Source: Phycisphaeraceae bacterium (GTDB lineage: Bacteria > Planctomycetota > Phycisphaerae > Phycisphaerales > Phycisphaeraceae). From it: a stretch of 64,000 nucleotides of DNA. This document shows, one piece after another, positions 9,466-45,309 of this stretch. How positions within the stretch are numbered: the stretch's first letter is position 1; every line of letters begins with the position of its first letter. Location: positions 1 through 64,000 of the forward strand of contig JAJDCU010000071.1 in assembly GCA_029260655.1 (NCBI GenBank), written 5' to 3'. The position numbers and the translations under genes are program-made. A model generated the notes under the pieces. The model made no database searches, was not told the DNA's origin, and worked only from the letters and a program-made list of their open reading frames with translations.

Positions 9466-9593
9466 TTAGAGCACGCCCGGGTCAACTGTAGCGGCTACTA
9501 TCAGCCGCCATCTTACAGGTGGCGGACTCGCCGGCGGTAAACCGGCGGCTATGATGACCGCGACCCGCTGTGCTTGGATACAGCGTGCTCTAA
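9466..9593. repeat. Palindromic intergenic element with 11-bp terminal inverted repeats
   Basis: TTAGAGCACGC (9466-9476) is matched by its exact reverse complement at 9583-9593. Inside lie further small palindromes: GTAGCGGCTAC (9488-9498), CCGCCA...TGGCGG around 9508-9528, and a direct repeat of CCGGCGG. The left end shares TTAGAGC-N9-TCAACTGTA (9466-9490), with identical spacing, with 45016-45040, and the element resembles 10682-10748. It fits a non-coding mobile or REP-like family; it could also help terminate gltA transcription. Confidence 0.55.
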
Positions 9594-9677
9594 ACGACTT
9601 ACTAAGAATATCCAGGGCTTGCAGTCTCACCCACCGCATCCGATGGGCGAGGGCAAGGCGTGTGCGATTGGTGGGGC

Positions 9678-9712
9678 AAAAAAAACGACTGCCCGCGGTG
9701 AAGCGGACAGTC
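9678..9712 (-). terminator. Rho-independent terminator of the PEP-CTERM gene
   Basis: On the minus strand a 10-bp stem (GACTGTCCGC with GCGGGCAGTC, one G-U pair, six-base loop) is followed after two bases by a run of eight T. It sits 34 bases after the stop of the gene at 9746. Confidence 0.85.
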
Positions 9713-9745
9713 GCGATAGGTTTAACCTAACTGTTGCGTGTCGGT

Positions 9746-10429
9746 TTAGCGACGACGACGCAGGATGGCGAGGCCACCGAGACCCATCAGAGCCAGCGAA
9801 GCGGGCTCGGGGATGACACCTATGGTACCGTTGATGATGAGGATGTTGAACGTGTCCTTGGCGGCCTGGCCGGCGACGGTGATCGCCAGGGTCAGGGTGC
9901 CTTGGGCATCGCCCGAGAAGGTGAACTGACCCAGTGCGTTGGCGCCGATATCAGTGTTGATCGTACCATTTCCGTTCCAGGAAACGTCGATACCGGCCGC
10001 GTCAAACTGCTGGGGGCCAGGGCCACCGGCATCGCCGCCGGCGCCGGCGATCGCGATCACACCAATGCCGCCGCCACCGGCTGGGGCGTTACCGTCCAAA
10101 TAGGAGTCGTACTGGGACGAGGGCAGGCCGGGGAAACCCAGGGGGCTGGGGGCGGACAGGGTCGACCCGTTGCAGCCGAAGCCGCATTCCAGTTCCTGAT
10201 AGATCGTGCCGCTGGAGAGGTGGACAAACATCGCAGCCGCCGTCCAGTCGAGGGTGGTGTTGACGGTCAGCACGTTGGCAGCGAAGCCATCAAGGTTACC
10301 GACGCCGCCTGTGATCGCGACTCCGTTAGGAACCGCGACGCTGGCCCACGACATGGTGGTCGCCGCCGTCGCGGTGCTTGCGGCGAAGCCGGCTGCGATG
10401 ACAGGCAAAGCAAACTTCATTATCCTCAT
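9746..10429 (-). CDS. PEP-CTERM sorting domain protein
   Basis: 227 residues from the ATG at 10429 (AGGAG seven bases upstream; a TTG at 10435 is the alternative). Signal peptide about 1-23 (ends TATA). The mature part is small, Gly/Ala/Asn-rich and almost free of Lys and Arg, with one CGFGC motif that could form a disulphide. It ends with a clear PEP-CTERM tail: IPEPASLAL, a hydrophobic segment, then RRRR. Unlike other secreted proteins of this window it has no dockerin repeat. Such proteins are exported, processed by an exosortase and often associated with the exopolysaccharide matrix. No enzymatic domain recognised. It has its own promoter candidate and a strong terminator, so it is a single-gene unit. 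Confidence 0.8.
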   Translation of the reverse strand: MRIMKFALPVIAAGFAASTATAATTMSWASVAVPNGVAITGGVGNLDGFAANVLTVNTTLDWTAAAMFVHLSSGTIYQELECGFGCNGSTLSAPSPLGFPGLPSSQYDSYLDGNAPAGGGGIGVIAIAGAGGDAGGPGPQQFDAAGIDVSWNGNGTINTDIGANALGQFTFSGDAQGTLTLAITVAGQAAKDTFNILIINGTIGVIPEPASLALMGLGGLAILRRRR

Positions 10430-10520
10430 CTTCAATCTCCTAATAAGATCCCACCAAGGAAGTAACTCAAAGACTGAAAACGCCCCGAGGCCGTACGGGC
10501 CCCGTGGAACGCTTGCCCCT

Positions 10521-10548
10521 ATGATAGCACGTCACATCTTTGGGTAAA
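10521..10548 (-). promoter_or_regulatory. Putative promoter of the PEP-CTERM gene
   Basis: On the minus strand TTTACC (10543-10548) and TATCAT (10521-10526) are separated by 16 bases, 4/6 and 5/6 matches to sigma70 consensus. Predicts a leader of about 85 bases before the ATG at 10429. Confidence 0.4.
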
Positions 10549-10681
10549 CAATTTTCCTGGGCAGTCAGCATCATTTCTGGCCGTACCCACAGGCATTGAA
10601 GCAGTTCATGCATCCGCTTGGAGCCACCGCCGCGGGCGCCAGGGCGTGTCTCGTTCATCAATCAGATCGAATTACGGCCGT

Positions 10682-10748
10682 TTAGAGCTTTTTCAATCCA
10701 AGTCCAGCGGTGATCAATACCCGCTACAGTTGGGCTGCGAGCGCTCTT
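10682..10748. repeat. Second copy of the TTAGAGC palindromic element
   Basis: TTAGAGC (10682-10688), nine bases, then CCAAGTCCAGCGG (10698-10710), a ten-base loop, and CCGCTACAGTTGG (10721-10733), which reads CCAACTGTAGCGG on the other strand, the same core as in the element at 9466. GCTCTT at 10743-10748 is a degraded partner of TTAGAGC. The whole can fold as one hairpin. Confidence 0.5.
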
Positions 10749-10836
10749 GAGGCGGGTCGCTGACTAGCGTGTTGACCCGGGGGCCAAGACCTGCGATTGC
10801 CCGCTAAACAGACTTTCAGGAGATACGTGACACGGC

Positions 10837-39189: not shown

Positions 39190-39353
39190 GCCATTTTGTT
39201 TGCTCCCCGCCGCTTGCCTGTCCGGTATGCGCGTCAGGACCGCCACAGCCGGGCAGCGGCGCATCAATAGTTATTGGACTTTGATTTCCCCAAAGGCTTG
39301 CAAGCTGAATGTAATACGCATCACACTTTCAAACTGCGTGTGGATTCGTCCCT

Positions 39354-39419
39354 CAGCCCCCGGCTCTGCCGGGGGTTTCGGTAGAGCATGAGGCGGTCCC
39401 CCCGCAGAGCCGGGGGCTG
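39354..39419. repeat. REP-like double palindrome
   Basis: Two 22-base arms, 39354-39375 and 39398-39419, are reverse complements with one mismatch. The left arm also contains a hairpin of its own, CCCCCGGC-TCT-GCCGGGGG. Two palindromes in opposite orientation around a spacer are the layout of bacterial REP/BIME elements. Not related in sequence to the TTAGAGC elements. Confidence 0.5.
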
Positions 39420-39624
39420 TGGGGACATGCCATTTCAAAGTGGGATCCGTATAGATCGTTTTCAAACCAAGAGCAGCGCGTCAGACGCACGCTACAGCCG
39501 GTCCACTTCGTCCGTACGATGTGCCAACAGGTTGGCCCGGGTGGCTACGTCCGGCGTACGCCGTGTGGCCGCGGCGGTGCGGATGTGGGAAGACGCTACA
39601 GATGGATTGAGATGCAATGAAACA

Positions 39625-45015: not shown

Positions 45016-45040
45016 TTAGAGCGGTTTTGGTTCAACTGTA
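45016..45040. repeat. Third copy of the TTAGAGC-N9-TCAACTGTA core
   Basis: TTAGAGC (45016-45022), nine bases, TCAACTGTA (45032-45040): 16 of 16 anchor bases and the exact spacing match 9466-9490. Followed by weakly similar sequence (AGCTGCCGTGAC versus AGCCGCCATCTT) and by the inverted pair AACGCGTG/CACGCGGT, so the element probably extends to about 45110. Confidence 0.5.
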
Positions 45041-45309
45041 ACGCGTGATGTTTAGCTGCCGTGACCACGCGGTGGGCTCCGGGCGTCGCTGCCGGGCTAA
45101 CCCACTGGCGTAGCTGAATCTCAAATATGAGAATCCCCGCCTCGGACCTCTCCGAGTTCTGACCACGGAGTACAGCGGAGAGATGCTAAGGCGTGTTTGG
45201 TTGGCTATTGTGGTGGCACCGAGTTTGCGAGAACCGGTGCAACGGCTGCCGCGACGGTAGAGTATCCGTGCGCTTGCATGGGCCATCGTTACGATCAAGG
45301 AGGCATTTG

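Follow-up and report, generated by a model that had tools for sequence, protein, structure and literature searches.

This locus raises the question of whether two similar palindromes, which flank a PEP-CTERM gene downstream of gltA in a Phycisphaeraceae bacterium, are chance intergenic repeats or bound a small mobile cassette in which the gene travels. The window (the whole stretch of 64,000 nucleotides that we analysed) is part of contig C71 in an 83-contig draft genome of 3.5 Mb (G000), and we compared it with five other genomes of the same genus (G001–G005). The features of the window that bear on the question are the following.

9466..9593, unstranded: element 1, a putative full-length palindromic MITE copy with arms of about 28 bp; 118.7 bits as a member of the covariance model
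9499..9556, unstranded: REP-like hairpin pair (9504-9525, GCCGCCATCTTACAGGTGGCGG; 9529-9548, CGCCGGCGGTAAACCGGCGG) that forms the core of element 1, plus TATCAGCC / GGCTATGATG feet
9685..9714, minus strand: at the PEP-CTERM gene's 3' end, a hairpin and T run resembling an intrinsic terminator (one found, against a shuffle mean of 1.4, which alone is not significant)
9746..10429, minus strand: PEP-CTERM protein gene, ATG at 10429; PF07589 E 4.4e-6, TIGR02595 E 5.4e-5
10521..10548, minus strand: promoter-like site upstream of the PEP-CTERM gene, a consensus match only (2 such sites in the region, against a shuffle mean of 0.4)
10682..10748, unstranded: element 2, with similar outer arms and without the hairpin core; 34.1 bits, E 1.9e-4, outside the model
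39453..39624, unstranded: possible third, decayed copy of about 170 bp; left arm TAGATCGTTTTCAAACCAAGAGCAGCG, right arm CGCTACAGATGGATTGAGATGCAATGA
45016..45043, plus strand: possible solitary left arm, TTAGAGCGGTTTTGGTTCAACTGTAACG; right arm not clear

As the earlier note on this DNA had claimed, element 1 has exact 11-bp terminal inverted repeats (TTAGAGCACGC / GCGTGCTCTAA), which close a palindrome of 128 bp that begins 19 bp past the gltA stop. TA is present at both of its ends (9467-9468 and 9591-9592), and its arms, both of which outscore all 3000 random sequences, are identical to the arm consensus at 19 and 20 of 27 positions. Folded as a single strand, it is more stable than any of 200 shuffles (z -4.62). 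Element 2 has the PEP-CTERM gene on one side and, on the other, the 3' end of the sugar transferase gene (PF02397), and 23 of 27 positions in its left arm agree with the arm consensus; it has TA at 10683-10684, but TT at 10747-10748, where TA would be expected. The TTAGAGC and nine-base spacing that had been claimed for it are both seen at 10682-10748, and the further claim that a core motif forms both arms of a hairpin there holds for the right arm, the one place where CAACTGTAGCGG is exact (10721-10732, minus strand), and approximately for the left, CAAGTCCAGCGG, which matches CAACTGTAGCGG at 9 of 12 positions. The fold of element 2 is unexceptional (52 of 200 shuffles were equally good), and a stable RNA structure is unsupported at its z of -0.61. 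Element 2 is a true homologue of element 1, and a covariance model built without it recovers it (match 10682-10749) at 34 bits. It runs GGTGATC directly into AATACCC, and copy C28 has GGTGATC-(core)-ATCAATACCC; the simplest reading of these sequences is that element 2 would have lost its core by deletion between two ATC triplets.

The two elements belong to a family with conserved ends that is found at no fewer than 17 places in the genome. The literal search proposed in the earlier note, run as TTAGAGC-N{3,15}-TCAACTGTA, matches the genome only at 9466 and 45016, and we set it aside as a misleading test of the family because spacer and core vary; further copies do emerge from homology searches. 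With whole-element DNA as the query, there are four clear further copies (E 4e-14 to 1.3e-7) plus weaker matches in the window genome. A covariance model, made from an alignment of eleven copies with the ends trimmed in two rows, gives 29 matches that correspond to at least 17 distinct places, six of which are in the model; 17 is a lower bound, as 150 of the 1513 first-look candidates were scored, and match counts exceed place counts because palindromes match on both strands. All six genus genomes match this model at E 0.01 (G004 weakly, at 0.001 or weaker), with 51, 38, 20, 15 and 3 matches over both strands in G003, G002, G005, G001 and G004, respectively, from 150 first-look candidates scored per genome. 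With a consensus query at E 0.001, six of 61 genomes were matched, namely the window's own, four of the five others of the genus, and one from another family of the same order, which matched through the arm only.

Most full copies span about 125 bp, counted from one TA to the other; their arms, each of some 28 bp (TAGAGCATTCTCAATCCAAgTGTAGCGG and its inverse; end consensus TAGAGCATTCTCAATCCAAgTGTAGCG), enclose a core of two hairpins. Ten copies excised by eye at their ends are 125-134 bp long, seven of them 125-127 bp, lengths that in most cases count one flanking base per side. The core consists of two inverted hairpins with the foot ATAGC or near it, stems that vary along with their partners and a middle that is mostly TAC, and loops differ at other family places. 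There are 26 distinct core hairpins, among which pairing was preselected, since the script demanded CT-NNN-AG and at least 5/6 pairs; in the covariance model, 16 pairs make up the two hairpins, both sides have changed in three of the 16, and the covariation term is weak (-0.15). At 10 of the 17 places in the window genome an arm scores above all 3000 random sequences, and at the other seven there is a core and no clear arm. The core may accordingly be able to spread on its own as well. Arms and core need separate searches, and a literal motif hides the family.

Elsewhere in the window, the arms at 39453..39624 match at 21 and 18 of 28 positions (ten shuffled windows each gave 4-10 matches at 17 or more), and neither this candidate nor 45016..45043 is among the covariance-model matches. 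An inverted CCCCCGGCTCTGCCGGGGG-type hairpin pair, by eye of a different REP-like class, lies at 39340-39430, just ahead of the 39453 candidate. Two stretches of G003 (L106, 3130-3253, and L098, 363-486) have family arms and a different core (AGCCCCCAGCGGAAGCTGGGGG); the right-arm match in L106 is exact, so family activity in G003 may be more recent. In L090 and L100 (bacterium Gpa_12), family arms enclose a two-hairpin core of other sequence.

The arms lead to a probable parent. The arm pattern TAGAGCRNTNTCAATYCAA is found in seven of 301 genomes of the order (three of the six of the genus and four others), with no match for the reversed-pattern control; this stricter pattern has no match in the window genome, whose copies are more decayed. 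Among 23 stretches matching the arm, 13 carry a planctomycete or Phycisphaer- title, and nine have the partner arm within 600 bp (a count made without a shuffle control); eight, with Bacteroidota-type, actinobacterial and cyanobacterial titles, lack the partner arm and were taken as chance. A few genomes outside the genus and within the order have a similar arm and different cores. At locus L108 the arm forms the terminal part of a reading frame that encodes a DDE_3 domain (PF13358, E 3.2e-7 for the L108 fragment), preceded by sequence that by sight resembles other transposase genes. Using this fragment as a protein query, we were able to identify 30 loci in 11 of 51 genomes of the family, and 15 of these loci hold the arm at no more than 5 mismatches in 19 (14 without L112, which is the seed itself), as compared to 0-2 loci in ten shuffles. 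Two loci, L134 and L138, in a genome of another genus of the family (G035), are complete elements of 1041 and 1042 bp; each is bounded on both sides by TAGAGCATTTTTCATTCA, TA is included at either end, and their flanks differ; the reading frame of L134 is DDE_3 (PF13358, E 3.7e-37). The ends of these elements are identical to the family arm consensus at 21-25 of 27 positions. No complete two-ended copy was seen at five other loci tested, several of which reach contig ends. As for the target-site duplications that the earlier note had wanted checked, TA stands at both sides of element 1, L134 and L138, and the right side of element 2 has TT.

The DDE_3 domain is that of the transposases of IS630/Tc1-mariner elements. 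Since the arms resemble the ends of DDE_3 elements, we read the repeats as IS630-type MITEs: the window repeats are very probably worn, non-autonomous MITEs with the ends of an IS630-type, TA-targeting transposon. An IS630-type transposase would have moved them in trans by cut-and-paste and would later have been lost from the lineage, or be missing from the draft assembly. A full MITE would consist of the two arms and two inverted REP-like hairpins, with element 2 having dropped the core. A DDE_3 search of the draft assemblies found three matches in G003, a single weak one in G005 and none in the window genome, G001, G002 or G004, so that, as far as the draft shows, the MITE family appears to be orphaned in the window genome; this absence is weak evidence, because draft assemblies often lose multi-copy elements. 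On this reading the planctomycete family is added to those bacterial MITEs whose IS630-type parent can be traced, and is another instance of a MITE with REP-like hairpins inside. A literature search, for which most subscription journals were out of reach, found no description of this MITE family.

The core by itself recalls another kind of repeat, and we considered whether a RAYT (Y1) transposase spread the copies as REP/BIME or REPIN sequences, with the arms incidental. An inverted hairpin pair with a conserved foot and varying stems would suit such an origin, as would the seven of 17 places where the core has no clear arm, and Y1 transposases occur in all six genus genomes. However, of 21 Y1-transposase matches, 20 loci were examined, and the core motif (at most 3 substitutions) is absent at 19 of them; the remaining one, L070, has two loose core matches with unpaired stems. 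A paired core is thus seen at none of the 20 loci (some flanks being cut at contig ends), and a RAYT origin of the core is disfavoured. Two of nine Y1 loci scanned for hairpins (L073 and L076) are flanked by hairpins of their own, IS630-type elements end in the family arms, and element 2 has no core, all of which makes the RAYT account improbable. L073 and L076 are RAYT-like, with hairpins to either side (CCGCGTCG..., CCCGCGATACCATCGCGGG), so RAYT/REP systems probably exist beside the MITEs in the genus.

It is more improbable still that the repeats are host regulatory structures, i.e., terminators or RNA structures in whose spread transposition had no part. Element 1 folds very stably and occupies the position of the hairpin that follows gltA in relatives (T-tailed in four of five, without a T run in G002), which favours such a role. 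But the places are scattered, the ends are shared with transposons, and element 2 folds no better than shuffles; terminator prediction listed none inside either element, and the five Rfam matches were at chance level, none of them above the gathering score.

With the MITE reading preferred for the repeats, the question becomes how the gene between them arrived. The PEP-CTERM gene does lie between the two elements, as the earlier note had it (9746-10429; PF07589 E 4.4e-6). Its best relatives are 64% (G001:C39) and 62% (G005:C80) identical and occupy other loci, beside a gene whose product has about 600 aa and a PEP-CTERM match just under the curated cut-off. By eye, the 64% relative (L159) has a similar hairpin after its stop and a similar start region. 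None of the best relatives in the five genus genomes (L159-L163) has an arm at 17 or more of 28 positions within the stretches examined, of which L159 ends 80 bp after the gene. The 600-aa neighbour in G001 and G005 has no full-length match in the window genome, and the donor site is not traceable because its listed matches, at 106 places, are confined to residues 460-629. This C-terminal module (residues 460-629) of the G001 PEP-CTERM-type protein is very common in G000, with several matches clustered.

According to a search with a 232-aa gltA query, gltA is found in all six genus genomes, and in the other five the sugar transferase gene follows it after about 190-450 bp (the G004 sequence ends within the transferase gene). 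At none of these five junctions is there a PEP-CTERM gene, nor TAGAGC or TTAGAGC on either strand, so that, among six genomes of the genus, the window genome alone has the whole PEP-CTERM transcription unit at this junction. A hairpin follows gltA in all five relatives, with a T run in four and none in G002, and the T-tailed gltA terminator of the relatives is missing from the window genome, where element 1 could serve gltA as a 3' hairpin. The G002 junction (L148) has a palindrome with GTGTAGCG / CGCTAC arms, a best arm match of 18/28 and no PEP-CTERM gene; it is likely to be a decayed relative of the family. The ends of this L148 palindrome read GGTGTAGCGATAGCC / GTCGCTACGGTTGATCGGAAGCTGATCTA.

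Nucleotide similarity between the window and the relatives stops at the end of gltA and resumes in the transferase gene, with a weak 26-bp stretch added in G003. In local alignments, 30 comparisons in all, ancestral sequence is found at 10756-10809 against G003 (0/200 shuffles as good) and, over a shorter part, against G005 (1/200), whereas the right flank gives no signal against G001, G002 and G004 (70, 188 and 88 of 200 shuffles as good). Ancestral DNA thus resumes 7 bp past element 2 in one or two of five comparisons, and only this right edge could be placed. None of the relatives aligns with the 19 bp that separate gltA from element 1, for which 91-197 of 200 shuffles did equally well, and part of 9594-9745 matches G003 at 1/200 shuffles, but out of order. 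The attempt to define a clean empty site was given up, the intergenic DNA of these species being barely alignable. About 100 bp of ancestral sequence including the gltA terminator is missing as compared to G003; with the terminator gone and the left edge unplaceable, the junction is a replacement and not a clean insertion.

Under a composite cassette, a transposase would have used the outer ends of elements 1 and 2 and carried the transcription unit between them, an account that we consider unlikely. The edges speak for it: ancestral sequence resumes at 10756, close beyond element 2, and 19 bp separate the gltA stop from element 1. Gene and TTAGAGC ends are absent at the junction of all five same-genus genomes, and the nearest relatives of the gene in G001 and G005 occupy another locus. 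On the other hand, the outer ends do not agree (the left one has TA, at 9467-9468, and the right one TT, at 10747-10748), the loss of the gltA terminator speaks of replacement, the left edge is not placed and the right flank is silent in three comparisons. The two elements have also diverged and differ in form, one with and one without a core, and no arms accompany the relatives of the gene in L159-L163. Two further family members, G000:C20:6034 and 8247, enclose a housekeeping-type, pterin-binding (folP-like) gene (PF00809 E 1.3e-82), neither of them with a clear arm, and a density argument for the element pair was set aside since this other close pair exists. A look-alike palindrome in G002, at this junction but with no PEP-CTERM gene beside it, also speaks against a cassette.

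What we hold to be the probable account is that the two MITEs inserted independently and that the gene came by another route (recombination or duplication). The two copies are unlike in structure and in degree of decay, the G002 junction holds a family-like palindrome and no PEP-CTERM gene, and a family at no fewer than 17 places in 3.5 Mb has at least one other close pair. Two distances are not predicted by independent insertion: at most 7 bp from the right edge of the non-ancestral segment to element 2's outer end, and at most 19 bp from gltA to element 1. Transposition of the pair is less likely than separate insertion of the elements and arrival of the gene by recombination. The alternatives in the earlier note, chance repeats or a mobile cassette, are partly supported: the repeats have turned out to be, very probably, non-autonomous transposable elements with conserved ends, and a cassette is possible but unlikely. 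The boldest version, in which a MITE-bounded cassette moved the whole unit, the inserted element took over the 3' end of the gltA transcript and MITE pairs contribute to reshuffling surface-protein genes, we regard as improbable; if true, it would apply to the very large repertoire of such genes with exosortase-sorted products in these planctomycetes. Whichever route the gene took, the gltA/sugar-transferase junction is a concrete site where comparing strains can date the acquisition of a surface-protein gene.

The planctomycete family is new, but it belongs to a known, ordinary kind of element. RUP of Streptococcus pneumoniae is a 107-bp non-coding intergenic element with TA ends, and with ends like those of IS630-Spn1; it is A+T-rich, has 108 copies, is proposed to move in trans, and the IS is common in the same species (PMC2229807, PMC3049150). 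The elements described here share with RUP the small size, the TA ends and the resemblance of the ends to IS630, whereas their copies are fewer and worn, the core is G+C-rich and the assembly has no DDE_3 match. The Correia/NEMIS elements of Neisseria come in two size classes, set apart by the presence or absence of an internal part of about 50 bp, and have TA at the ends and inverted repeats of about 24-26 bp (PMC2229807, PMC3049150). Two sizes are found here as well (128 bp in element 1 and 67 bp in element 2), but the sequences are unrelated, and the internal part, which in Neisseria holds an IHF site and putative promoters, is here a hairpin pair.

QMITE2 of Coxiella burnetii is a MITE with a REP palindrome found mainly in 3' untranslated or intergenic sequence, and a block of genes lies between two of its copies (PMC5896051, PMC10969869). 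REP-like hairpins inside a MITE and a gene between two copies are common to both cases; QMITE2 differs in its 7-11 nt direct repeats and GTAG-type REP, where the planctomycete copies have TA ends and another hairpin core. In Acinetobacter, integrons lie between two MITEs that are identical and recur around different cargoes (PMC10969869); there too a gene is placed between two MITE copies, but ours have diverged and the unit is seen once. The inverted hairpin pair and conserved foot are like those of REP/BIME and REPIN sequences (PMC3733652; see also PMC3116915), although here a RAYT link was not found at the Y1 loci examined, and the core of full copies lies inside IS630-type ends. RUP/IS630-Spn1, Correia and QMITE2 together cover each feature of the planctomycete family.
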